A DNA stretch of 32,851 nt from positions 1-32,851 of the forward strand of contig CAINDP010000102.1 of assembly GCA_903847405.1 (NCBI GenBank), written 5' to 3'. The notes below the pieces were generated by a model. That model did not search any database and was not told the origin of the DNA. It saw only the letters and a program-made list of their open reading frames with translations. The stretch's first letter is position 1. Each line of letters begins with the position of its first letter. Source of the stretch: an uncultured Myxococcales bacterium. GTDB taxonomy: Bacteria; Myxococcota_A; UBA9042; DTJE01. The translations under genes and the position numbers were made by a program. This document shows, piece after piece, positions 19,805-32,141 of this stretch.

Positions 19805-21001
19805 TCACTTCCCTGCGTCCGGATCGTCGCGAACGCGCTGGTAGGCGTCCCGGAAGGGGATGCCCGCGTCGCGGACCAGCCGGTAGGCCCTGGCGGCCAT
19901 GTCCATCGACGGGTCCATCGCGGCGGCCAGGCGGTCCGGGTCGAAGGTGATCCGGGGCAGGACCAGGGCCAGGACCCGTGCGGTATCCAGCACCCCGTCC
20001 AGGCCGCGGAACAGGGGACGCTTCAGCAGTTGCAGGTCCCGGTGGTACCCCGACGTCATCTTGGCCGTGACGCCCAGGACCTCGACCAGCGCAGCCTGGG
20101 CCTCGGCGGTGCGCCCCCGGGCGATCTCGAAGACGTCCGGGTTCCGCTTCTGGGGCAGCATGGACGAACCCGTCGTGATCGACGCCGGCAGGTGCACGAA
20201 CCCGAATTCCGCCGAGGCGAACAGGCAGATGTCGGCGGCCAGGCGGCCCAGATCCTGGGCCAGCAGGGCGGCCTCGAACAGGGCGGACGCCTCGGCCTTG
20301 CCGCGCGACAACTGGACCGCGGTCACCGGTTCGTGGGTCGACGCGAATCCCATCGCGCGGGTCGTGTGCTCCCGATCCAGCGGCAGGACCGGCACGCCGT
20401 ACCCGGCGGCGGACCCCAGGGGGTTCCGATCGGCACGGCGCTTCGCGGCCCGGAGGCCCTCCGCGTCGTCCCGGGCCTCGGCGGCGAACGCGCCCGCCCA
20501 CAGCGCCACCGTGGACGGCATCGCCCGCTGAAGGTGGGTGTAGCCGGGCATCGGCAGGTGTCCCTGGGCGGCGGCCACGTCGTCCAGCGCCGCGGCGACG
20601 AGGCCCGCGGCCAGGGCCAGTTCCTCCAGGCAATCCTTCAGCCACGGGCGCAGGGCGGCCAGGATCTGGTCGTTCCGGGAGCGCCCCAGGTGCACGGCCC
20701 GGCCGGCATCGCCCGCCAGCGCGGTCAGGCGGTTTTCGATCGCGGTGTGGCAGTCCTCCTCGTCCGGCTGGATGTGCCATTCGCCCCGGGAATGGGAGTC
20801 CAGAAGGTCGCGGATCGCGGCCTGCAGCGCCTGGTGGTCCGCGGCGGTCAGGAAGCCCGCCGCATGGAGCATCGAGGCATGGGCGGCCGTGGCGTGCAGG
20901 TCGTACGGCACCAGGCGTTCGTCCAGGGACGGGTCGTCCCCCGCCGTGTACCGGAGGACCGTTTCGTCCAGGGGCTCGCCCCGATCCCAGAGCCGCGTCA
21001 T
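19805..21001 (-). CDS. argH: Argininosuccinate lyase, C-terminally short
   Basis: Cleaves argininosuccinate to arginine and fumarate, the last biosynthetic step. The 398-residue product has the superfamily motifs: HLGRSRNDQ (usually HTGRSRNDQ or HSGRSRNDQ), MPGYTHLQ and the signature TTGSSMLPQKRNPDVFE with the catalytic serine loop. The segment PLGSAAGYG...LDREHTTR is of the Bacteroidetes subtype. Usual ArgH length is about 445-465. This one ends after GIPFRDAYQRV and lacks the last 50-60 residues, although the active-site regions are complete. The ATG overlaps the argE stop (ATGA). It is the last gene of the arginine operon. Confidence 0.93.
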   Translation of the reverse strand: MTRLWDRGEPLDETVLRYTAGDDPSLDERLVPYDLHATAAHASMLHAAGFLTAADHQALQAAIRDLLDSHSRGEWHIQPDEEDCHTAIENRLTALAGDAGRAVHLGRSRNDQILAALRPWLKDCLEELALAAGLVAAALDDVAAAQGHLPMPGYTHLQRAMPSTVALWAGAFAAEARDDAEGLRAAKRRADRNPLGSAAGYGVPVLPLDREHTTRAMGFASTHEPVTAVQLSRGKAEASALFEAALLAQDLGRLAADICLFASAEFGFVHLPASITTGSSMLPQKRNPDVFEIARGRTAEAQAALVEVLGVTAKMTSGYHRDLQLLKRPLFRGLDGVLDTARVLALVLPRITFDPDRLAAAMDPSMDMAARAYRLVRDAGIPFRDAYQRVRDDPDAGK

Positions 21002-22098
21002 GGCGCCCTCCCCTGCCCCGTTGCGCCTGCGGCCCAGCCGCGCGCCAGGGCCTCGTAGAACCGTGCACCGTCCAGGATTTCGGATTCCAGCACGTACTCG
21101 TCCGGGGTATGCGAGCGCTCGGTGCGCCCAGGCCCCGCCTTGATCGACGGCACGTCCCGGAAGTAGACCCAGTCGGACACCGCCCGGGACCCGAAGGCGA
21201 CGGCCCCGGGGCGGGCCTCGAGGGCAGCGCGCACCAGCGGATCGGCCGGATCCACGTCGCAGGGAACCAGCCGGTCGATGTACACCGCCAGCTCGCCGGA
21301 CACCGACTTCCGCAGGCGTTCGACCAGCACCTCGTGGGATTCCCCCGGGTTTGTGCGTACGTCCAGCGTGCACGACGCCGCGGCCGGGATCACGTTCCGC
21401 GCGGTACCGCCCTGGGCGGTCGTCGGCTCCAGCGTCACCGGGCCCAGGACCGGGTGGTCGGGCCCCAGATCGGCCGCCTCCAGGTCCACGAGGTCCCGCG
21501 CCAGCAGGCTGAGGGCGTTCCGGGCTCCCAGCGCACGGCCGTGGGCGGCGTGGCAGGCCATGCCCGTTTCGCGCAGCTCCAGCATCAGCAGCCCCTTCTG
21601 CGCGACCGACACGTCCAGGCCGGTCGGCTCGCCGATGACCGCCGCCGCCGGCGCCAGCCCCAGTCGCTGCATTTCGGGGACGAGGATTTCGGCGCCGTCG
21701 CCCCCGGTTTCCTCGCACGCCACCAGGGCCAGGGCCAGGCGCGCCCCCGGCAGGCCGCCGCCGGCCTTCACGCGCAGGAACGCGGCGGTCATCGCGGCCG
21801 CGGGGGCCTTCGCGTCGTTGCTGCCCAGGCCGTGGACGCGCCCTTCCCGCAGGGTCGGGGTCCAGGGAGGAAGGGTCCATCCGGGGGCGGGCGGCACGGT
21901 GTCGAGGTGGGAATTCAGGCACAGGATCGGGCCGACCTCCCCGAGGATCGCCCAGATGTTGTCATGGAAGCGGCGCACCGAAACGCCCCGGTCCGCCAGG
22001 AACGCCGCCACGAGGTCCGCGATGGGCCCCTCGTCCCCCGACACCGACGGTGTCGCCACGAGGCTGCGGTGGAACGACAGCAGCTCGGCGTCGGTCAT
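20998..22098 (-). CDS. argE: M20 deacylase: N-acetyl/succinyl-citrulline or -ornithine deacylase
   Basis: The product is a 366-residue M20-family zinc hydrolase. Expected metal and catalytic residues are visible: His64 and Asp66 in NSHLDTVPP, bridging Asp95 in GLGSNDAKA, the Glu129-Glu130 pair in CEETGG, Glu157 in GEPT, and a C-terminal RSHTPDEY histidine. The C-terminal GPGRTERSHTPDEY resembles ArgE proteins of Bacteroidetes. Because argF' in the same operon carbamoylates an acylated ornithine, the likely substrate is N-acyl-citrulline rather than N-acetylornithine; this is inference from context. Its start and stop both overlap neighbours by four bases (argB upstream, argH downstream). Confidence 0.9.
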   Translation of the reverse strand: MTDAELLSFHRSLVATPSVSGDEGPIADLVAAFLADRGVSVRRFHDNIWAILGEVGPILCLNSHLDTVPPAPGWTLPPWTPTLREGRVHGLGSNDAKAPAAAMTAAFLRVKAGGGLPGARLALALVACEETGGDGAEILVPEMQRLGLAPAAAVIGEPTGLDVSVAQKGLLMLELRETGMACHAAHGRALGARNALSLLARDLVDLEAADLGPDHPVLGPVTLEPTTAQGGTARNVIPAAASCTLDVRTNPGESHEVLVERLRKSVSGELAVYIDRLVPCDVDPADPLVRAALEARPGAVAFGSRAVSDWVYFRDVPSIKAGPGRTERSHTPDEYVLESEILDGARFYEALARGWAAGATGQGRAP

Positions 22099-23048
22099 GG
22101 GGTCGTCGTCCCCTCGGGCTCGGCGTGCTCGGCCGGCCGCAATTCGGAAGCGTCGCGCACGATCAGCGTGCCGGCGCCCTCGTTGGTGAACACCTCGCGA
22201 AGGAGGCCCGATCGCACCTTCCAGCCGACCATGTGGATGCGCCCCACCCCGCGAACCAGCGCGTCGCGGGAGGCGGCGATCTTGGGCATCATCCCGCCGC
22301 CGATGCATCCCCGGGCCTGCAGGGCGTCCAGCCCGGCGAGGTCCACGTAGGACACGAGGGTGCGGGGATCGTCCAGGCGCTCCAGCAGCCCCGCGGTGTC
22401 GGTCAGGAAGAACAGCTTTTCCGCGTTCAACCGGATGGCCAGTACGGCGGCGACCGTGTCGGCGTTGACGTTCAGCACCTGCCCGGCGTCGTCGGCGCAC
22501 AGGGGGCTGACGACCGGGACGATGTCGGCCTGCAGGAGGCTGTTGAGGAGCGCCGGGTCCACCGACACGACGTCCCCGACGCGGCCGTAATCCACCAGGG
22601 TGGAAACGCCGTCCACGTCCATCGAGCGCGGGGGGCGCTTCTTCACGCGGATCATGGCCGCGTCCACGCCCGACACGCCGGCGGCCGGCACGTCGGCGGC
22701 CCGGAAGGCCGACAGGAATGCCGTGTTGATCGCGCCGTTCATCGTCATGACCGCGGCGTCCAGGGCCTCGTCGGAGGTCACCCGCCGGCCCTCCACGAAA
22801 CTGGTCTCGACGCCCAGGCGCTTCGCCAGGTCGGTCGTCTGGGGCCCGCCGCCGTGGACGACCACGACGCGAATGCCCAGCTCGCGCAGCACACCCACCT
22901 GTTCGGCGATGTCCCGCATGGCGTCGGCCTCGCCGCACAGGGCGCCGCCCACCTTCACCACGAACGTCCGCCCACGGTACAGGCGCAGGTACGGCAGCGC
23001 CCTCCGCAGGCCCAGCATCCCGGCTTCCGGATCGTAGGGTCCCGTCAT
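22095..23048 (-). CDS. argB: N-acylglutamate kinase with N-terminal helix
   Basis: The 317-residue amino-acid kinase phosphorylates N-acetyl- or N-succinyl-glutamate. Motifs: FVVKVGGALCG phosphate loop, HGGGPQ, a GRRVT substrate segment, NVNADTVA and GGGMMPKI. The segment MLGLRRALPYLRLYRG before the kinase core matches the mobile N-helix of arginine-inhibited hexameric NAGKs (Pseudomonas, Thermotoga), so feedback inhibition by arginine is likely. An insertion around KKRPPRSMDVDGV and a longer C-terminal tail are unusual. There is no fused GNAT domain, so it is not a bifunctional synthase/kinase. It overlaps argF' and argE by four bases each. Confidence 0.93.
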   Translation of the reverse strand: MTGPYDPEAGMLGLRRALPYLRLYRGRTFVVKVGGALCGEADAMRDIAEQVGVLRELGIRVVVVHGGGPQTTDLAKRLGVETSFVEGRRVTSDEALDAAVMTMNGAINTAFLSAFRAADVPAAGVSGVDAAMIRVKKRPPRSMDVDGVSTLVDYGRVGDVVSVDPALLNSLLQADIVPVVSPLCADDAGQVLNVNADTVAAVLAIRLNAEKLFFLTDTAGLLERLDDPRTLVSYVDLAGLDALQARGCIGGGMMPKIAASRDALVRGVGRIHMVGWKVRSGLLREVFTNEGAGTLIVRDASELRPAEHAEPEGTTTP

Positions 23049-24058
23049 CTCCGATGGCCTCCAAGCAGTTCGATCAACAACGCCTTCTGGACGTGCATCC
23101 GGTTCCCGGCCTCGCGGATCACCGCGCTCCGGGGGCCATCCAGGACCTCGTCCGCCACCTTGACGTTCCTGCGCACCGGAAGGCAGTGCAGGAACTTCGC
23201 GTCACGCTCCGCCACGTCGAACCAGGACTCGCGGACGCACCACTCGTCCCGGAGCGGCGCGCGCAGCACCGCTTCCTCGGCCGGGCGGCCGTAGAACTGC
23301 GGGGCCGCCCAGGACTTCACGTACACGGCGTGCGCGCCGTCCATCCCCTCGACGCGATCCGACGTTTCCCGGAGGTGCGCGCCGGTGCGGGCGGCGATCG
23401 TCCGGGCCCGGTCCATCACCTCGGCAGGCAGGGCGAACCCCTCCGGCCGGAGCACCGTCACGTCCATTCCGCGCCGCACCGCCATTTCCAGCGCAGAGGC
23501 AGGAACGGCGTACGGAAGCGCCTTCGGATGCCACGCCCAGGACAGCACGAACCGTCCGCCCTTGCGCGGGATCGTCAGGTCGTCCAGGGTCTTCCAGTCG
23601 GCCAGCGCCTGGCAGGGGTGCGCCCGGGCCGACTCGAGGTTCATGAAGGGCTTCGGGCAGAGGTCCGCCATGGTCCGGATCAGGCCGTCCGCCAGGTCCG
23701 TCCCCAGGTCCTTGCCCTCGGCGAAGCACCGCACGCCCAGGAGATCGGCGTACTGCGCGAGGACCGGGATCGCCTCCCGGACATGCTCCGCGGCCTCGCC
23801 GTCCATCACCGCGCCGTCGCGGGTTTCCATCTTCCACGAGCCCGACCCGGGCGTCACGACGAAGGTCTGCCCCCCCTGCTGGGTCACCGCGGCCTGCATC
23901 GAGGCCAGGGTCCGCACGGAGGGATTCATGAACAGCAGCCCGACCGTGCGGCCCTTCAGGGCGTCGCCGTAGGGACGGGCCTCCAGGCGGGTCGCCAGGG
24001 CCAGGACCGCTTCCAGCCGTTCGTCGCTGAGGTCGGACAGATCCAGGTAGTCCATCAT
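23045..24058 (-). CDS. argF': N-acylornithine carbamoyltransferase (acetyl/succinyl type)
   Basis: The 337-residue enzyme belongs to the AOTCase/SOTCase branch that carbamoylates acylated ornithine. Diagnostic features: KSWAAPQFYG in place of the ornithine SMG loop, HCLPVRRNVKV instead of HCLPAFH, WAWHPKALP, and Trp75 in GSGSWKME. The specificity position in MDGEAAEH is Ala90; as I recall, Xanthomonas AOTCase has Glu here and Bacteroides SOTCase has Pro. The carbamoyl-phosphate loop reads SVRTL, where the usual final Arg is Leu. Substrate is therefore acyl-ornithine, with succinyl more likely than acetyl, though another acyl group is possible. It has tandem ATGs; the first overlaps the argD stop (ATGA). 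Confidence 0.92.
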   Translation of the reverse strand: MMDYLDLSDLSDERLEAVLALATRLEARPYGDALKGRTVGLLFMNPSVRTLASMQAAVTQQGGQTFVVTPGSGSWKMETRDGAVMDGEAAEHVREAIPVLAQYADLLGVRCFAEGKDLGTDLADGLIRTMADLCPKPFMNLESARAHPCQALADWKTLDDLTIPRKGGRFVLSWAWHPKALPYAVPASALEMAVRRGMDVTVLRPEGFALPAEVMDRARTIAARTGAHLRETSDRVEGMDGAHAVYVKSWAAPQFYGRPAEEAVLRAPLRDEWCVRESWFDVAERDAKFLHCLPVRRNVKVADEVLDGPRSAVIREAGNRMHVQKALLIELLGGHRR

Positions 24059-25218
24059 GCCGGGATCTCCGCGAGGGTCGAAACCAGCCGGTCCACGTGG
24101 ACGTCCCGCAGGACCAGCGGCGGCAGCAGCCGCACGACGTTCGGATCGGCGCTGCCGCCGGCCAGGATGCCCCGCGCCCGCAGATCCTTCAGGACGCCCG
24201 CCGCCGGGCGCGACGTGCGCAACCCCAGCAGGAAGCCCGTGCCCTGGATCCCGGTGACGGGACCGACGGCGCATTCGGCGTGGATGCGGGCCGACAGGTG
24301 GCGCACGTTGCCCAGGAGGCCCTCCTCCTGGATGACGCTGATCACCGTTTCCACCAGGGCGCAGGCCATCGGCCCGCCGCCGAACGTGGAACCCAGGTCG
24401 CCGCGCTTGATTCCCCGGGCCAGGGATTCCGGAATCAGCACGGCGCCCGCGGGGAAGCCGCCCGCCAGGCCCTTCGCCGTCGTCAGCAGGTCCGGGGTCA
24501 CGTCCATGGCATCCGCCGCGAACGGCCAGCCGGTGCGCCCCATGCCGCACTGGACCTCGTCGAAGATCAGGAGGCTTCCGGCGTCCCGGGTGACCTCCCG
24601 GGCGGTGCGGAGGAAGGACGGCGAAAGGGCGCGGGCCCCGGCGACGCCCTGCACGGGCTCCAGGATCACGGCGGCCACCCGGTCGTCGACGGCCGTCCGC
24701 AGGGCATCCTCGTCGTCGAAGGGCACCCACCGCACCTCGAAGGGGGCGGAAGGAAAGCCGTTCCAGGCGGCGGACCCGGCGGTGACGGTCGCCGCCGCCG
24801 AGGTGCGCCCGTGGAAGGCGCCGGCGATCGCCACGACGATCGGGCGCCCGGTGGCCCGGAAGGCGATGCGCAGGGCGTTTTCGTTGGCCTCGGCGCCCGA
24901 GTTCACGAAGAAGACGCGGTCCAGGCCGGGAGGAGCGAAATCCGCCAGCGCCCGTGCCGCCCGCTCCCGGACGGCCAACGGCACCAGGTTGCTCTGGAAG
25001 AACAGGTCGCGCGCCTGGCGCTCCAGGGCCGCCAGCAGGCGTGGATGGCCGTACCCCAGCAATGCCACCGCGTGCCCGCCATAGAAGTCCAGGTACTCGC
25101 GGCCGTCGGCGGACTTCAACATCACGCCCGCGCCGGAAACCGGCTCGAAGTCGATCATCGCAAAGACGTCCAGGAGGGCCGAGGCCCCCGTCGCGTCAAC
25201 CGTCGCCTCGTTCCCCAT
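24055..25218 (-). CDS. argD: Acylornithine aminotransferase
   Basis: The 387-residue class III PLP aminotransferase converts N-acyl-glutamate semialdehyde to N-acyl-ornithine with glutamate. Motifs: GGHAVALLGYGHP near the N-terminus, NSGAEANENALR, GAFHGRT, the cofactor aspartate in IFDEVQCGMGRTG, and the Schiff-base lysine Lys249 in TTAKGLAGGFPAG. Length is normal. The ATG at 25218 shares one base with the argC stop (TGATG) and is preferred to an upstream GTG at 25227. Whether the acyl group is acetyl or succinyl cannot be told from this protein. Confidence 0.94.
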   Translation of the reverse strand: MGNEATVDATGASALLDVFAMIDFEPVSGAGVMLKSADGREYLDFYGGHAVALLGYGHPRLLAALERQARDLFFQSNLVPLAVRERAARALADFAPPGLDRVFFVNSGAEANENALRIAFRATGRPIVVAIAGAFHGRTSAAATVTAGSAAWNGFPSAPFEVRWVPFDDEDALRTAVDDRVAAVILEPVQGVAGARALSPSFLRTAREVTRDAGSLLIFDEVQCGMGRTGWPFAADAMDVTPDLLTTAKGLAGGFPAGAVLIPESLARGIKRGDLGSTFGGGPMACALVETVISVIQEEGLLGNVRHLSARIHAECAVGPVTGIQGTGFLLGLRTSRPAAGVLKDLRARGILAGGSADPNVVRLLPPLVLRDVHVDRLVSTLAEIPA

Positions 25219-26291
25219 CAGAACCACCCCGGTCCGGGGACGCTGAGCCCCCGGTCATCCGGCCACCCCAGCAGCCGGTTCAACCATTGGATCCCGCCTC
25301 CGGCCGCGCCCTTCACGAGGTTGTCGATCACCGAGGTGACCACCAGGGTGCGCCCCCGGGCCGCCACGCCGATCCGCGCCCGGTTGGTGCCCACGACCTC
25401 GGTCAGCCGGGGCGGCGTGGTGCCGACGCGGACGAACGGGGAGTCGGCATAGAAGGCTGCCGCTGCTGCAGCCAGCGCCTCGGAGGTTCGCGGCGCCTTC
25501 AGGGTCATCCGGACCGTCGCGTGGATGCCCCGGACGAACGGCCCCGAGTGGGGCACGAACTGGACGTCGGGTTCGCGGCCTCCGCACGCGGCAGCCAGCA
25601 GGCGCCGCATCTCGGGCTCGTGGCGGTGCGCCAGCGGCGAATAGGCCTTCATGTCGCCGTGGCGCTCCGGATGGTGGGTCGTCGCCGAGGGCGTGCGGCC
25701 GCTGCCGGAACTGCCCGTCACCGCCGCGGCGAAGACATCGTCCTCGACCAGGCCTGCCGCCAGGAAGGGGTACGCGGCCAGCGTCACCGCGGTCGTGAAG
25801 CACCCGGGCTGGGCCGCGTGGCGGGCGGGCGTCCCGGCGAGGTGCTCGGGGACTGCGCACGTGAACTGGGACAGGCGCGCCGGGGCCCCGTGGGGCTGAA
25901 GATAGACGGCTTCGTAGGCCGACGCATCGGGGTACCGGAAGTCGGCCGAAAGGTCCACGACGCGGGCGTCCGCGCCCGCCGCCTCGGCTGCCGTCAGCAG
26001 GCGGTCCAGGATCGCCGCGGTGGCCCCGTGGGGCGTCGCGGCCAGCACGCCGACCGTCCTTCCGAAGCGCAGCGATTCCAGCGCGGAATCCAGCGTCACG
26101 AACGACCATCCATCCGCCGCGGTCCCGGCGAGGTGCGGGAACGCCGTGGTCACGGCGCCGCCGTCCCGGGTCGTGGACACCACGGCCTCGACCACCAGCG
26201 ACGGGTGGCCCAGCAGCAGCCGCAGGCATTCGCCGGCGACGTAGCCCGTTCCGCCCAGGACGATGACGGGCACGCGAGGTTCACCCGTCAC
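25218..26291 (-). CDS. argC: N-acyl-gamma-glutamyl-phosphate reductase
   Basis: The 357-residue NADPH-dependent reductase makes N-acyl-glutamate semialdehyde. Visible are the nucleotide-binding GGTGYVAGE (13-21), LSADFR, catalytic Cys164 in QPGCFTTA, SGSGRTPS, and the HRHEPEM active-site histidines. Its GTG start overlaps the stop of the preceding P-loop gene by four bases (GTGA). Length and motifs are ordinary for ArgC. Confidence 0.95.
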   Translation of the reverse strand: MTGEPRVPVIVLGGTGYVAGECLRLLLGHPSLVVEAVVSTTRDGGAVTTAFPHLAGTAADGWSFVTLDSALESLRFGRTVGVLAATPHGATAAILDRLLTAAEAAGADARVVDLSADFRYPDASAYEAVYLQPHGAPARLSQFTCAVPEHLAGTPARHAAQPGCFTTAVTLAAYPFLAAGLVEDDVFAAAVTGSSGSGRTPSATTHHPERHGDMKAYSPLAHRHEPEMRRLLAAACGGREPDVQFVPHSGPFVRGIHATVRMTLKAPRTSEALAAAAAAFYADSPFVRVGTTPPRLTEVVGTNRARIGVAARGRTLVVTSVIDNLVKGAAGGGIQWLNRLLGWPDDRGLSVPGPGWF

Positions 26292-27370
26292 GGCGTACCT
26301 CCCTGCGCCAGGGGCCCGGCGATCGGCAGCCCGAGGGCCGCCAGCACCACGTCTGCCAGGCCGTCACCGTCCGACCGGGCGTTCCGGCCGGGCACGTTCG
26401 TCTGGCGCTGGACCAGCACCGTCCCGGCGTCGTTGTCCGTCGCGGGTCCGGTCACCACATCGGTCCGCAGGCCGTGGCGATCCTGCAGCAACTGCACGCC
26501 GCCCCAGGCCGCCACCGGATCGCTGGCGGCCAGCACCACCGCCTTGAACGTGGCGCGCAGGCCCAGATCGTTCAGGATGGCGTCGACGCCGTACAGGCCC
26601 AGCAGGCCGTCGCCCAGTTCCAGGACGATGACGTCGGGCCCGCTGGACGCCAGTTCCGTCAGCAGCGTGCGGGCCGATCGCGGCGCCACCTCGGCCGTCG
26701 TGGTGACGATTCCCAGGTCGGTGAACAGCAGCGTCTTGCGCGCGCCCGCATCCTCCATCGCCAGGATGTCCCGCCGCAGGGACACGCCGGTCGCCTTGGC
26801 CGCGGCCACGACGAAGCCCCGGTGGCTGAACGCCTGGACCAGGGCGCAGGCGGCGGCCGTCTTGCCGGCGTTCATGCTGCTGCCGACCACGGCGATGACG
26901 GGAACGCCCTTGACGTCCAGGCGGTCCGAAAGGGCGATCGCACCCTGGGTGATGTGGGCGGGGACGCCGATCCGCTGCGCCAGGAACGGGAAGGCCAGCA
27001 CCTGCCCCAGGACCTCGCACTGGAAGGGCTCGCCGAAGTCCGGGTTCACGCTGTCGCACACGCCCAGCACGCCCCCCAGGTTCAGCAACTGCAGGCGATC
27101 GCCGACGGCGACCGACGCGGGCACGTGCCCGGAGTAGCCGAACAGGGCCTTGCGGTGCCCCAGCGCCACCGCGGCGACGTCCCCGGGCTTGACCTTCGAA
27201 AAGCGCCCGGACGGCAGTTCCAACTGGTTGTAGTTGCCCTTGGAGGTCATCACCCGAACGGCGACCACGCCGCCCTCGAGCGCCGGGATCTCGTCCGTCA
27301 GACGGACCTCGCGGGACAAGCGGCAGTTCATGGTGACGGACCCGATCTTGTCCAGGAAGACGCTCCTCAC
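26288..27370 (-). CDS. Uncharacterised P-loop protein of the arginine operon (DTBS/DUF1611-like fold)
   Basis: The 360-residue protein has no assigned function. Residues 1 to about 150 are beta-rich (VAVRVMTSKGNYNQLELPSG and following). Residues 155-348 form a P-loop domain with GSSMNAGKT (163-171), whose extra residue matches dethiobiotin synthetase GTxxxxGKT and, from memory, DUF1611 proteins. A Walker-B-like VIVLELGDGLLG follows at 248-259. GTG at 27370 follows AGGAGG and overlaps the argG stop (GTGA); its own stop overlaps argC. In related Bacteroidetes clusters this region carries a GNAT acyltransferase gene. Some DUF1611 proteins are reported N-acetyltransferases of D-glutamate, so N-acylglutamate synthesis is a hypothesis. 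An ATP-dependent ligase or regulatory role is also possible. Confidence 0.85.
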   Translation of the reverse strand: MRSVFLDKIGSVTMNCRLSREVRLTDEIPALEGGVVAVRVMTSKGNYNQLELPSGRFSKVKPGDVAAVALGHRKALFGYSGHVPASVAVGDRLQLLNLGGVLGVCDSVNPDFGEPFQCEVLGQVLAFPFLAQRIGVPAHITQGAIALSDRLDVKGVPVIAVVGSSMNAGKTAAACALVQAFSHRGFVVAAAKATGVSLRRDILAMEDAGARKTLLFTDLGIVTTTAEVAPRSARTLLTELASSGPDVIVLELGDGLLGLYGVDAILNDLGLRATFKAVVLAASDPVAAWGGVQLLQDRHGLRTDVVTGPATDNDAGTVLVQRQTNVPGRNARSDGDGLADVVLAALGLPIAGPLAQGGTP

Positions 27371-28587
27371 CGGGCCTCCTTGTCCTGGCCCGCGATCGCT
27401 GCGCGGGCGTGAAGCATGGATGGAATCGCCAGCATGCGTGCGAAGCCCCGGGCGTCGGCGGCCGTCCACTCGCCCGCGGATTCGCCGTAGACGCCGCGGG
27501 ACGCGGCCCGCAGCGAGAACGGTGACGACACGCCCTCGACGAAACTGTTCCCGGGCCGGAACCGCACGTGGACGTCGCCCGTCACCCGATCCTGCGAACT
27601 CAGGAACAGCGCCTCGATGTCCCGGCACGCGGGTTCCAGGGGCAGCGCCTCGTGGACCAGGTCCCCGTAGATCGTCGCGACCTGGTCCTTCACGCGCTGC
27701 TGCCGGCCGGTCAGGACCAGCTTCTCCAGTTCCCGGTGCGCCTGGATCAGCACGGTCGCTGCCGGGGCCTCGAAGGCCACGCGTCCCTTCAAGCCGAAGA
27801 TGGTGTCGCCCAGGTGGATGCCCCGGCCGATGCCGAAGGGGGCCGCCAGGCCGTCCAGGCGCTCCACCAGCGCCACCGGCGCCAGGGCCGCGCCGTCCAG
27901 CGCCACGGGTACCCCTTCCTGGAAGGAGATCGTGTGGGCTTCCGGCTCCCGCGGCCGGTCGTAGGCGCCATGGGTCAGGACCCAGGCATCCTCGGGCAGC
28001 GCGGCCACGGTGTCGGTCGTTTCCGCGCCGCCGATCGTGCAGCCCCAGAGCCCCCGGTTCACCGAGTACGACTTCGTGTCCGCGGACACGGCGTGGCCCC
28101 GTTCGCGCAGGTACCCGGCTTCGAAGTCCCGGCTGAACCCTTCGTCGCGGACCGGGGCCAGGATCTCGAGGGTGGGCGCCAGGACGCGCAGGGCCACTTC
28201 AAAGCGCACCTGGTCGTTGCCGGCCGCCGTGGACCCGTGGGCCACCGCCCAGGCGCCGACGTCCGCCGCAACGGCGGCGACCTTGGCGGCCTGGAGGGCC
28301 CGCTCGGCGCCGACGCACAGCGGGTAGAGGTGCCCGCGCAGCACGTTCCCCATCACGAGGTACCGAAGCGTTTCGTCGAAGAACGCGTCCCGGGCGTCCA
28401 CCAGGACGTGGCGGGTCGCGCCCAGGGTCCTGGACCGGGCCTCCAGGGATTCCCTGGCCCCGGCGTCCAGTCCGCCCGTGTCCACCGTCACCGTGATGAC
28501 GGGCCGCTGGTGCCGCTCGGCCAGCCAGGGCACCAGGAACGACGTGTCCAGGCCCCCGCTGAAGGCCAGTACGATGGGGTCATGCAT
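27367..28587 (-). CDS. argG: Argininosuccinate synthase
   Basis: The 406-residue enzyme joins citrulline and aspartate using ATP. The PP-loop AFSGGLDTS lies at residues 7-15. Also visible are GNVLRGHLYPLCVGAER and HGSTAAGNDQVRFE, of the subtype found in Bacteroidetes-like clusters, and SADTKSYSVNRGLWG. The ATG at 28587 sits after GGGAGG, and the argR stop overlaps it by eight bases (ATGCATGA). Its stop overlaps the P-loop gene. Length is normal and the product is cytosolic. Confidence 0.95.
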   Translation of the reverse strand: MHDPIVLAFSGGLDTSFLVPWLAERHQRPVITVTVDTGGLDAGARESLEARSRTLGATRHVLVDARDAFFDETLRYLVMGNVLRGHLYPLCVGAERALQAAKVAAVAADVGAWAVAHGSTAAGNDQVRFEVALRVLAPTLEILAPVRDEGFSRDFEAGYLRERGHAVSADTKSYSVNRGLWGCTIGGAETTDTVAALPEDAWVLTHGAYDRPREPEAHTISFQEGVPVALDGAALAPVALVERLDGLAAPFGIGRGIHLGDTIFGLKGRVAFEAPAATVLIQAHRELEKLVLTGRQQRVKDQVATIYGDLVHEALPLEPACRDIEALFLSSQDRVTGDVHVRFRPGNSFVEGVSSPFSLRAASRGVYGESAGEWTAADARGFARMLAIPSMLHARAAIAGQDKEAR

Positions 28588-29050
28588 GGGCAGCCTCCCG
28601 GACGATTCGTGCCAGCAGCGCTTCCAGTACCGACTGCTGGCCCCTACCCTGCGTAGCCACGAACACCGTGTCATCCCCCGCCACGCAGCCGATCATCTGG
28701 GGCCAGCCGGCCCGGTCGAATGCCACGGCGACGATGGGCGCGCGCCCCGGGGGCGTACGCACGACCAGGAGGTTGGGACCGGCCGACTTCACGTCGCGGA
28801 TCGAGGTGGCGACCTCGCGAAGTTCGGTTCCCGGCAGCCCCGACGACAGGGCCTCCGGGGTCCGGTACCGTCCGTCCACCTTCGCGGCCTTCAGGTCGGA
28901 CAGATCGCGTGACACGCTGGACTGCGTGACCTGGAAACCACGTTCGCGCAGTGCTTCCAGCAACTGGCCCTGGGTGCGGATGACCCGCTTGGCCAGCAAC
29001 TGCCGGATGACCACCTGGCGCTCCTCCCATTGTTCGTCCCGGACCGGCAT
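28580..29050 (-). CDS. argR: Arginine repressor
   Basis: The 156-residue ArgR has the N-terminal winged helix (recognition segment TQSSVSRDLSDLK, about 42-54) and the C-terminal arginine-binding, trimer-forming domain with GCVAGDDTVFV. It is a hexameric, arginine-dependent regulator. It is the first gene of the nine-gene operon and its upstream region holds palindromic operator-like sites, so it likely represses its own transcription along with the pathway. The ATG follows AAAGGAGGG. Such a leading position mirrors the Bacteroidetes-type arginine cluster. Confidence 0.94.
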   Translation of the reverse strand: MPVRDEQWEERQVVIRQLLAKRVIRTQGQLLEALRERGFQVTQSSVSRDLSDLKAAKVDGRYRTPEALSSGLPGTELREVATSIRDVKSAGPNLLVVRTPPGRAPIVAVAFDRAGWPQMIGCVAGDDTVFVATQGRGQQSVLEALLARIVREAAHA

Positions 29051-29200: not shown

Positions 29201-31219
29201 TCAGGCCTCCCCGCCTCGGACGTCCGCGAGGGCCCTCTGGATCGCTGCCGAGAGGGCCTCCAGCCGGAAGGGTTTCGCCAGCACGTCCCGGAAGCCGGCA
29301 CGTAGGCACCGGGCAAGCGTTTCGCTGTCCCGGGTGCAACTGCTGGCGACGAGGCGGGCTGCGGGTTCCCGCGCCAGGAGGGTTTCCACGATGTCGTTTC
29401 CGTCCAGGCCGTCGGGCACATCCAGGTCCAGGATCAGGACGTCGAAAGGGCGGCCCTGCTCGAATGCCTCGGCATGGGCCTTCAGCGCCGACGCGCCGTC
29501 CGCTGCCTGGGCGACCTCGTAGCCCAGCGGCGCCAGGAGGCGCGCGGCGATGTCCCGGCCGAAGGCCTCGTGATCCATCACCAGGACGCGCCCGGTGCTG
29601 CGGGCGATGCCGGCCGCCGGGCGCCGCGAATCGCTGCCGGTGTTCCCGTCGGCTGCCGGAAGCAGGATTTCGAAGGTGGTTCCCGCTCCCACCTGGGACT
29701 GGACGGAAAGCAGCCCGTGGTTGGCGTGGACGATGGCGTAGGACGACGCCAGCCCCAGGCCGTGGCCGGGGCTCATGGTCGTGTAGTACGGCTCGAAGAT
29801 GCGGGACAGGCGTTCCGGGGCCAGCCCGCTCCCCTGGTCCTGGACCTTGATGGCCACGTAGGAGCCGGGCTCCAGGCCGGGCGCGGCCTCGCGGACGGCG
29901 ACGTTGGCGCACGCGACGCGCAGACGGCCGCCCTGCGGCATGGCTTCGACGGCGTTGACCGCCAGGTAGTGCAGCACCCGGCCCAGGCGCATCGGGTCGA
30001 TGCGAACGGGCCAGAGGTTGGCCGGCGCCTCCAGTTCCAGGTGGATGTCGGTCCCTCGCAACGCGAAGGACATCGAGTCCCGCACTACCTGGGGCGCCAC
30101 CGCGACGCTCCGTGCCCCGGCGCCACCCTTGGCGAAGATCAGCAGGTCCCCGGTCAGTTCCGAGGCACGCGTCAGCGCCTTTTCGGCCTGGCGCACGTGC
30201 AGCGCGACCGGGGAGTCGTCGGGAACCATCATGCCCGCGAGGGACAGGTTCCCGATCGCGGCGGTCAGGATGTTGTTGAAGTCGTGCGCGATGCCGCCCG
30301 CCAGCGCCCCCAGCGAGTCGAATTTCTGTGCCCGGGTCACTTCCTCCTGGGCCAGGCGGACGTCCGTCACGTCCAGCGCCGCCGTCAATCGTACCTGGCG
30401 ACCGCGGAAGACGAACGGATGGCTGGTGACCTCCAGGACCAGGGGACGACCGTCCTTGCCCGTCGTGCGCAGTTCGTAGCGTCCGTCGACCGCAGCCCCC
30501 TCCGGGGTCTGGACCAGGGGGATGTCCTCCAGCGGAACGAAATCGCTGAGGAGCCGGCCGATCACCTCCTCCCGGGAACGTCCGATCAGGCGCGCCATGG
30601 TCTGGTTCAAGTCGATGATCACGCCGGCGTCGTGGATCATCAGTCCTTCCATGGTCGCATCCAGTAGGACGCGATGACGCTCCTCGGCGTCCTTGAGGGC
30701 CTCCCGGTCCAGCACCTGGTCCGTGATGTCCCGCGAGATGCCCAGGACGGCCCGGACCCGCCCATCCGATTCGCGCACGGGGGTCAGGCGGGTGTTCAGC
30801 CAGTAGAGCCTTCCTCCGATGGTGTTGGCCGCCTCGACGACGACCGGCCTGCCCCCGTCGATCGCCCTCTGGAGGTCCCCGATCTGCCGTTCTGCAGCCT
30901 TTCCCGAGCGGGTAGGCGGACCCGACTCGGGACGGTCCAACGACGTCTTGCCCAGCAGCACGCCGACGTGCTGCCCGACCAGTTCGTCCCGGACCTTGCC
31001 GAAGCGCTGGCAGGCGAAGTCGTTCACGTACTGGACCACCCCCTCCGAATCGATGACGAAGATGAAATCCTGGGCGGTTTCGATCAGCATCCGGTACTGG
31101 CGTTCACGGCGTTCCGCGCCGGCCAGGCGCTCGCGCAGGTCCTGGAGTTCCTGCCGCAATGCGCCGACCGGGGCGACGTCGCTGGAAGTCCCGGGGAGGT
31201 CGGGGGCTTGGGATGGCAC
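29201..31219 (-). CDS. Soluble PAS-PAS hybrid histidine kinase
   Basis: The 672-residue protein has a short coiled-coil start (residues 20-45), two PAS domains (about 43-168 and 178-290), a dimerisation/phosphoacceptor domain with His312 in GGIAHDFNN, a HATPase domain (N-box VNAVEAM, G-boxes DQGSGLAPE and GHGLGL) and a receiver domain (about 543-665) with Asp598 and Lys649. The receiver's acidic pocket reads MDHE instead of the usual DDE, losing one Mg2+-coordinating acid. No signal peptide or membrane helix is present, so it senses an intracellular cue. A GTG at 31219 is chosen because it lies seven bases after GGAGG. A partner regulator is not adjacent. Confidence 0.92.
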   Translation of the reverse strand: MPSQAPDLPGTSSDVAPVGALRQELQDLRERLAGAERRERQYRMLIETAQDFIFVIDSEGVVQYVNDFACQRFGKVRDELVGQHVGVLLGKTSLDRPESGPPTRSGKAAERQIGDLQRAIDGGRPVVVEAANTIGGRLYWLNTRLTPVRESDGRVRAVLGISRDITDQVLDREALKDAEERHRVLLDATMEGLMIHDAGVIIDLNQTMARLIGRSREEVIGRLLSDFVPLEDIPLVQTPEGAAVDGRYELRTTGKDGRPLVLEVTSHPFVFRGRQVRLTAALDVTDVRLAQEEVTRAQKFDSLGALAGGIAHDFNNILTAAIGNLSLAGMMVPDDSPVALHVRQAEKALTRASELTGDLLIFAKGGAGARSVAVAPQVVRDSMSFALRGTDIHLELEAPANLWPVRIDPMRLGRVLHYLAVNAVEAMPQGGRLRVACANVAVREAAPGLEPGSYVAIKVQDQGSGLAPERLSRIFEPYYTTMSPGHGLGLASSYAIVHANHGLLSVQSQVGAGTTFEILLPAADGNTGSDSRRPAAGIARSTGRVLVMDHEAFGRDIAARLLAPLGYEVAQAADGASALKAHAEAFEQGRPFDVLILDLDVPDGLDGNDIVETLLAREPAARLVASSCTRDSETLARCLRAGFRDVLAKPFRLEALSAAIQRALADVRGGEA

Positions 31220-31239
31220 GGCCACTCCTCCAAGGGCGA

Positions 31240-31288
31240 CCCGGCACGATGGGTGTCCGTGAAATCGAGCGTGGTCCCGCGTGCCGGG
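31240..31288. repeat. Perfect 9-bp inverted repeat upstream of the hybrid kinase
   Basis: CCCGGCACG at 31240-31248 and CGTGCCGGG at 31280-31288 are exact reverse complements, 31 bases apart. The outer arm lies just downstream of the minus-strand TTGACA, so the pair could be a looped operator or a leader hairpin for the kinase gene. Confidence 0.5.
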
Positions 31289-31389
31289 AGTGTCAAGGCG
31301 TCCGGGCGGGACGGCCGGAGGGCAGGCGACGGCTCCCGTCACCCCGATCCGGAAGACCCGAGGCGCCTCTCCGGGCGGTGTCGGGTCGC

Positions 31390-31419
31390 TTGAGGCCGGT
31401 GCCCACGAAGCGGTATCCT
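31390..31419 (+). promoter_or_regulatory. Putative promoter of the ECF sigma gene
   Basis: TTGAGG (31390-31395), an 18-base spacer and TATCCT (31414-31419) match sigma-70 consensus at four of six positions each. This would give a leader of about 170 bases. An additional autoregulated ECF promoter could not be recognised. Confidence 0.35.
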
Positions 31420-31595
31420 TTGGCCCGACATCCCGCCCGACGCAGGCTCGGACCTGCCGCCGATCGACCCGCCTCCCCCGGATTTCGGTGCGTCGGGCCT
31501 GCCCCAGGCGGGAAGCCTGCCCCTCGATCGTTCATTCCGGGTACACTTGTCCTCGACGGATGCCCCGGGCACCGGTTTCCGGATTCGGAGGATGC

Positions 31596-32141
31596 TTGCC
31601 CGGACACGACGACCCCTGCATCGCTGCCTTCAACGCCGGCCTCCGCAGCAGCCTGCCGCGGCTGTACCGCTACGCCGCGCACCTGTGCCGCTCCCGTGAG
31701 GCAGCCTCGGATGCCGTGCAGGACGCCGTGCTGCGCGCCCTGGAACGCCGGGAATCCTACGACCCCGGCCGCCCGCTGCTGCCCTGGCTGCTGACGCTGG
31801 TCCGGCATGCCGTGGTGGACCGTGCGCGATCCTTCGATCCCTTCCGGCGCTCCGCCGATCTGGACCTCATCCCCCCGCAGGAGTCGGGGGCCGGTTCGGA
31901 CCCGGCCCGGGCGGCCGCCACCGTCCAGGCCGCCGCCCGCATCCAGGCGGCACTGGAGCGCCTGCCCCTGGAGCAGCGCTCTTCCGTCGTCCTGTTCTAC
32001 CTCGAGGGGATGACCCTCGACGAAATCGCGACCATCGAGGACGTGGCCGTCGGCACCGTGAAAAGCCGCCTGCACCGGGCCCGGGAGGCGCTGGTTTCCC
32101 TGCTGGGTCCCGAGGCCGACGGGGTGCTGTTGTGGAACTAG
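31596..32141 (+). CDS. ECF-type RNA polymerase sigma factor
   Basis: The 181-residue product is a two-domain sigma factor. Region 2 (about residues 8-65) contains SDAVQDAVLRALERRESYD and the -10-recognition helix WLLTLVRHAVVDRAR. Region 4 (about 115-170) has LPLEQRSSVVLFYLEGMT and the helix-turn-helix VGTVKSRLHRARE. A TTG at 31596, four bases after GGAGG, is the best-supported start; an in-frame ATG at 31560 without a clear ribosome site is the alternative. The gene is followed, 111 bases later, by an anti-sigma gene, the usual arrangement for an ECF switch at the membrane. The signal is unknown. Confidence 0.9.
   Translation: MPGHDDPCIAAFNAGLRSSLPRLYRYAAHLCRSREAASDAVQDAVLRALERRESYDPGRPLLPWLLTLVRHAVVDRARSFDPFRRSADLDLIPPQESGAGSDPARAAATVQAAARIQAALERLPLEQRSSVVLFYLEGMTLDEIATIEDVAVGTVKSRLHRAREALVSLLGPEADGVLLWN

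Follow-up and report, generated by a model that had tools for sequence, protein, structure and literature searches.

In bacteria with acylornithine transcarbamylases, genome annotation has a standing gap at the first step of arginine biosynthesis, a step for which several major bacterial groups have no recognised enzyme. Among the described N-acylglutamate synthases (NAGS), the BT3761/Cabys_1732 type is a GNAT-like N-acyl(succinyl)glutamate synthase found in Bacteroidetes and Calditrichaeota (PMC7311316). The transcarbamylases themselves have been characterised at residue level. A review associates Glu92, Asn185 and Lys302 (X. campestris numbering) with N-acetylornithine specificity, and lists A, S, P, V or Q at position 92, P at 185 and V, I or E at 302 as the marks of N-succinylornithine (PMC4581275). 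The tie between A, S, P or V at position 92 and N-succinylornithine is made in two sources (PMC4581275, PMC7311316), and in BT3717 the position equivalent to 92 switches specificity, with mutants at this position reported in the GapMind paper (PMC7311316). PDB entries 3l02, 3l05, 3l06 and 3l04 carry A, S, V and P, respectively, at position 92.

In this study we analysed a stretch of 32,851 nucleotides from an uncultured Myxococcales bacterium (contig CAINDP010000102.1, hereafter the window), which carries an arginine operon that includes an unassigned gene, ORF-X (X in other genomes; Table 1). The gene order is argR-argG-X-argC-argD-argF'-argB-argE-argH. Pfam and NCBIfam gene calls confirm what a sequence-only reading of the window had proposed, a nine-gene arginine operon without an N-acylglutamate synthase. 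The placing of ORF-X between argG and argC was also correct, including the 4-bp overlaps on both sides, and GTGA is found at the upstream as well as the downstream junction. The argB product has 317 aa without a fused GNAT domain or acetyltransferase extension. Two translations upstream of argR were judged by eye only: that of positions 29201-31342 resembles a PAS/histidine kinase-response regulator hybrid, and that of positions 31281-32141, read from the other strand, an ECF-type RNA polymerase sigma factor.

Table 1. Coordinates of ORF-X, its domains and motifs, and the neighbouring arginine genes in the window.
Feature	Position	Strand	Description
ORF-X	26288..27370	-	candidate N-succinyl(acyl)-L-glutamate synthase, 360 aa; start codon GTG at 27370, stop codon end at 26288; overlaps argG (end 27367) and argC (start 26291)
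N-terminal beta-rich domain of ORF-X, residues 1-152	26915..27370	-	AF2 pLDDT 87.8
Walker A GSSMNAGKT of ORF-X, residues 163-171	26858..26884	-	G163, M166, G169, K170, T171 invariant in 55 homologues
K192 codon of ORF-X	26795..26797	-	invariant; paired by hhalign with the E. coli BioD lysine after the P-loop helix and strand
E251 codon of ORF-X, motif ELGDG	26618..26620	-	invariant
argR	28580..29050	-	TIGR01529 99 bits, Pfam above cut-off
argG, argininosuccinate synthase	27367..28587	-	TIGR00032 above cut-off
argC	25218..26291	-	TIGR01850 above cut-off
argD	24055..25227	-	Pfam Aminotran_3; argD subfamily 317 bits
argF', knotted acylornithine transcarbamylase	23045..24058	-	NF003384 362 bits, above cut-off
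argB, N-acylglutamate kinase, no GNAT fusion	22095..23048	-	TIGR00761 above cut-off
argE, M20-family ArgE/DapE-like deacylase	20998..22098	-	Pfam, NCBIfam
argH	19805..21001	-	TIGR00838 above cut-off

We searched the genome to which the window belongs (5.65 Mb, 97% complete) for the known synthases, with GNATs checked by family search. ArgJ was not found, the ArgA model matched argB only, and no NAGS was named among the 10 of 11 Pfam Acetyltransf_1 matches that were scanned, one of which is RimI. The GNATs covered were those within PF00583 and TIGR01890, which do not include BT3761-like ones. Because of these three results the missing-synthase gap is real within the GNAT models used, as had been suspected from the window itself. 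We propose, from sequence and genome comparisons, that ORF-X is a non-GNAT synthase of the first arginine step, most likely forming N-succinyl-L-glutamate, and give this reading a probability of roughly 0.74. The broader claim, that ORF-X would be an N-acylglutamate synthase whatever its acyl group, is rated slightly more probable, and succinyl as the acyl group somewhat below it. Under this proposal ORF-X would N-acylate L-glutamate, and the product would then pass through ArgB, ArgC and ArgD; ArgF' would carbamoylate at the N-succinylornithine stage and ArgE would deacylate afterwards. ORF-X would thereby take the place of ArgA, ArgJ, NAGS-K and BT3761, the GNAT-like enzyme of Bacteroidetes, as a protein not homologous to them.

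The gene neighbourhood of X in other genomes argues for this proposal. X lies within arginine clusters at all of the approximately 110 loci inspected in Myxococcota, Acidobacteriota, Planctomycetota and Gammaproteobacteria. It stands beside arg genes at 89 of 90 fetched loci (a set that counts a few genomes twice), usually in the order argR-argG-X-argC-argD-argF'-argB-(argE)-argH. At the remaining locus, L018, the arginine gene next to X is argR, and a wider stretch shows argF' where the contig ends; in one class of Myxococcota relatives, where X is 50% identical, the cluster is shrunk to argR-X-argF'. All five X orthologues among 185 Gammaproteobacteria sit with arg genes, and two gammaproteobacterial orthologues beyond the 90 loci keep argG-X-argC in a cluster of different order. 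X is present in about 36 of 149 sampled Acidobacteriota genomes (E <= 1e-59), and the divergent X of this phylum (31-52% identical) adjoins argC at all 20 loci inspected. Four of these 20 loci hold X, argC, argD and argB and nothing else of the pathway. They are the most telling ones, since the three enzymes encoded with X convert N-acylglutamate into N-acylornithine, so that the synthase step alone is left to be filled. X clusters without argF' also exist, in Acidobacteriota (L215-L218) and at L033, L035 and L077, where argC, argB and usually argD are present; X is therefore independent of the acylornithine transcarbamylase. X is thus encoded together with argB, argC and argD, as would be expected of an N-acylglutamate synthase. 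Homologues lying mainly outside arginine operons had been named in advance as a finding that would speak against such a role, and the survey places them inside (89/90 loci, 20/20 in Acidobacteriota, 5/5 in Gammaproteobacteria). As a separate observation, X loci of Gammaproteobacteria (for example L043-L050) have operons that are complete but for the argE deacylase gene.

The occurrence of X also excludes that of the classical synthases. Full-length ArgA was found in none of 5 X-bearing Gammaproteobacteria versus 123 of 180 without X (Fisher p 0.004), and ArgJ in none of 10 X-bearing genomes versus 25 of 43 without X among 53 relatives (Fisher p 0.0008); these p-values overstate independence because the sampled genomes are related, and many genomes in the counts are incomplete MAGs. 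Another 49 X-bearing genomes contained no full-length ArgA and a single ArgJ match, a 98-residue fragment. As a control, a distant paralogue of X occurs outside arginine operons in 9 of the 185 Gammaproteobacteria. Eight of its carriers have no true X and all of them keep ArgA; in the remaining one, G268, a true X is present and ArgA is absent. These nine distant homologues lie beside ABC exporters and hydrolases, so that we rejected them as X orthologues and assigned them to a separate paralogue family. Where X occurs, ArgA and ArgJ are therefore absent, with other GNATs partly covered, and no X-bearing genome was found with the functional ArgA or ArgJ elsewhere that the sequence-only reading had named as a refutation. 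One exception to the transcarbamylase pattern described below is a gammaproteobacterium with ArgA and without X (G254; L143, G254:C153), in which a short contig carries a fragment of a SOTCase-type argF', possibly through contamination or a lone acquisition.

These data also bear on the alternative that ORF-X is some other essential part of the acyl-arginine pathway, for instance a factor for regulation, metabolon formation or assembly, or a second deacylase, and that an unrecognised synthase is encoded elsewhere. The GNAT search covered some of the GNAT families and the reaction of ORF-X is a proposed one, which gives this alternative some room, and a deacylase role is conceivable for the gammaproteobacterial operons that have X and no argE. 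However, both X and argE are present in Myxococcota and in some of the Acidobacteriota, X anticorrelates with ArgA and ArgJ specifically, and the minimal X-argC-argD-argB clusters are without the first step only. We consider this alternative unlikely. The synthase reading had been put forward in two forms, an N-acylglutamate synthase outside the GNAT type or a ligase that uses ATP to attach an unusual acyl group; it has come through the genomic tests of synthase absence and operon linkage and is supported by them.

By sequence comparison, ORF-X is a member of an undescribed protein family. It matches no Pfam or NCBIfam model at cut-off, sequence searches with it, alone or as a profile, find no significant PDB chain, and no account of the family was found in the open-licence literature. 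When each species was represented by one genome, a scan gave 457 relatives, the best 80 of which come from MAGs of Myxococcota, Acidobacteriota, Planctomycetota and Gammaproteobacteria. The nearest named records, 85-94% identical, belong to uncultured Myxococcales; the parallel with Bacteroidetes clusters that had been drawn earlier does not extend to the host, which is a myxococcotan relative and not a member of the Bacteroidetes. A set of 35 diverse members aligns over the full length with 48-79% identity to the window protein. X is conserved to the same degree as ArgG (68% mean identity), and its pairwise distances follow those of argG, argC, argF' and argB with r of 0.91-0.95, a co-divergence measured by distance correlation in place of a tree.

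Membership in several known families was considered and rejected. For DUF1611/DgcN, PF07755 scores 16.6 bits against a cut-off of 25, NF041892 gives no match, and hhalign covers 45 P-loop columns only (prob 33%), which does not amount to full-length homology. MobB falls short in the same way (PF03205 18.6 bits versus 26.6; TIGR00176 19.9 versus 76.2), no BioD model matches at E 0.1 and the genomic context is arginine, not biotin. ORF-X has no Acetyltransf/GNAT domain and no TIGR01890 or NF003387 match, as GNAT-type NAGS (ArgA, NAGS-K) would have, and no PF01960 match as in ArgJ. The likeness to DUF1611 proteins that had been pointed out from the sequence thus holds in that the P-loops align, but it is a weak argument for function because nothing beyond the P-loop aligned when the profiles were compared, and BioD aligned no worse; kinship at family level is rejected. 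It might still be thought that ORF-X is an ordinary DUF1611/DgcN, BioD or MobB member that came into the operon by chance, as its low Pfam scores for MobB and DUF1611, both under the threshold, could suggest. The window protein lies below every curated cut-off, however, its arg linkage is kept across four phyla, and its N-domain is unlike DUF1611_N and has no PDB match; as stated, this explanation is refuted by the neighbourhood survey and we regard it as extremely improbable.

The paralogue family, found in alpha/beta hydrolase - P-loop - ABC exporter clusters, is homologous to X end to end (hhalign prob 100, E 6e-50). Its members are named 'DUF1611 domain-containing protein' or 'dethiobiotin synthase' in RefSeq; scores against DUF1611 are weak for X as well as for the paralogues, one of which (L129) passes PF07755 at 29.2 bits. 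Paralogue loci (L127-L135, L146-L148) hold an alpha/beta hydrolase or PHB-depolymerase-like esterase and an MsbA/CydD-like ABC exporter, sometimes with Porin_O_P or an S8 peptidase. This family may also be an acylating enzyme. A plasmid search matched the paralogue family and other P-loop proteins only, and jumbo phages of Erwinia and Dickeya encode DUF1611-like hypothetical proteins (34 records, e.g. MZ443774.1 14428-15237).

A confident AlphaFold2 model (pLDDT 94, pTM 0.91) confirms both the P-loop and the beta-rich N-domain noted in the translation. Foldseek places the C-terminal domain nearest to dethiobiotin synthetase (PDB 1dae, 1dbs, 1dts; E 1.4e-7, probability 1.00), with SRP GTPases ranking after BioD and CTP synthetase lower. 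The N-terminal domain alone has no PDB match at E < 0.001 (best E 0.65), and therefore no function can be read from it. Across 55 diverse sequences, K170, T171, K192, D201, E251 and D254 are among the invariant residues of the P-loop domain, and Y47, E51, R73 and N97 are invariant in the N-domain. ORF-X thus has the DTBS fold with a Walker A motif and a following lysine that characterise BioD. The set K170/T171, K192, D201 and E251 presumably resembles the Mg-ATP and substrate site of BioD; E251 is a presumed Mg2+ ligand, D201 and E251 may both serve as metal ligands by analogy, and the Mg-ATP site of ORF-X is apparently intact. We suggest that these residues of the C-terminal dethiobiotin-synthetase-like P-loop NTPase could form the Mg-ATP site and that the N-terminal beta domain, with its four invariant residues, would complete the substrate site.

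Which acyl group is attached can be approached through the neighbouring transcarbamylase. In argF' of X operons, position 92 is A in 66 and V in 2 of 68 aligned sequences, position 185 is P in 65 of 68, and position 302 is A in 43, V in 12 and K in 13. In the more divergent X clusters, position 185 is again P and position 92 is one of A, P, S, V and T, the T of several Acidobacteriota being outside the published residue list. The full AOTCases of genomes without X, two gammaproteobacterial and one myxococcotan, have E/N/K at the three positions. In the myxococcotan one (G024:C134, L189), the AOTCase is followed by a fused NAGS-kinase (NF003387, 599 bits) and then argC, a Xanthomonas-type arrangement from which it follows that both acylated pathways occur within one class. 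Because the transcarbamylase residues in X operons are SOTCase-type, the pathway is best read as succinylated, as in Bacteroidetes, and the earlier suggestion that the acyl group is an unusual one is strengthened. For X operons without argF' (L033, L035, L077, L215-L218), succinylation would be an analogy. The window argF' itself has A/P/K, that is, two of the three SOTCase markers (92 and 185) with an acetyl-like K at 302, and is SOTCase-like, short of full assignment. This K302, and a score above the N-acetylornithine carbamoyltransferase cut-off, could mean that ORF-X attaches an acetyl or other small acyl group rather than succinyl. We find this improbable: position-92 mutants have been reported to switch specificity (PMC7311316), and the window has A92 and P185, with A/V/P across the family. 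The model behind that score, NF003384, cannot tell AOTCase from SOTCase at residue level.

As for the chemistry of the succinyl transfer that we propose, two routes can be considered. BioD and formyl-THF synthetase convert a carboxylate to an acyl phosphate, which an amine then attacks. By analogy, ATP would activate the carboxylate of succinate to an acyl phosphate and the glutamate amine would attack it, so that ORF-X might be an ATP-dependent succinate:L-glutamate ligase acting via succinyl phosphate in a dethiobiotin-synthetase-like active site, a reading we offer only tentatively. It is also possible, if doubtful, that ORF-X makes N-succinylglutamate by acyl-CoA transfer, with the P-loop binding succinyl-CoA by its phospho-ADP part and without use of ATP, as in DgcN. 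DgcN, a P-loop protein acting on glutamate that NCBIfam NF041892 names 'N-acetyltransferase DgcN', is described as acetyl-CoA dependent; it is to our knowledge the only P-loop acyltransferase for glutamate, a remote precedent, and X aligns with the DgcN/DUF1611 profile at the P-loop. We also know of no characterised linear-pathway NAGS that uses anything other than acyl-CoA. The DgcN alignment covers only the P-loop, however, and K192 of X matches BioD and not DgcN sequences, which have R or another residue before TG at this place. ATP-dependent activation is slightly favoured over succinyl-CoA transfer; the lean is slight because BioD/formyl-THF synthetase chemistry suits a ligase, yet DgcN depends on acetyl-CoA.

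If our proposal is right, one undescribed family would fill the annotation gap in Myxococcota, about a quarter of the sampled Acidobacteriota (36/149), Planctomycetota and Gammaproteobacteria, whose X carriers would otherwise be scored as arginine auxotrophs. The succinylated arginine pathway would then reach well beyond Bacteroidetes, and N-acylglutamate synthases would include a third unrelated fold. Should the ATP-dependent ligase prove true, its chemistry would be new to the first arginine step, in a family with a new N-terminal domain fold. The reading of ORF-X yields a simple and directly testable prediction.

In likening X to known systems, function and descent have to be kept apart: in function X is compared with NAGS or a BioD-type ligase, but by descent it is a new family. 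DgcN/DUF1611 proteins (NF041892, PF07755) are P-loop proteins of similar length, and DgcN, like the proposed X, acts on glutamate; however, they have a different N-domain, and DgcN belongs to D-glutamate catabolism whereas X belongs to L-arginine synthesis. BioD differs from X by the extra 150-residue beta domain of the latter (alignment TM-score 0.33 on X), and the paralogues, about 30% identical to X, differ in lying outside arginine operons in carriers that keep ArgA. The Xanthomonas-type pathway of NAGS-kinase and N-acetylornithine transcarbamylase has the argF' operon logic and acylated intermediates in common with X operons, but its synthase is a GNAT domain fused to ArgB and its transcarbamylase carries E/N/K, in contrast to A/P/x in X operons. 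The BT3761-type synthase, compared here by description only, would share the step and the product proposed for X, lies near argG and argD genes and is paired with a SOTCase-type transcarbamylase, but it is GNAT-related, whereas the fold of X is of the P-loop type and its N-domain is unrelated.
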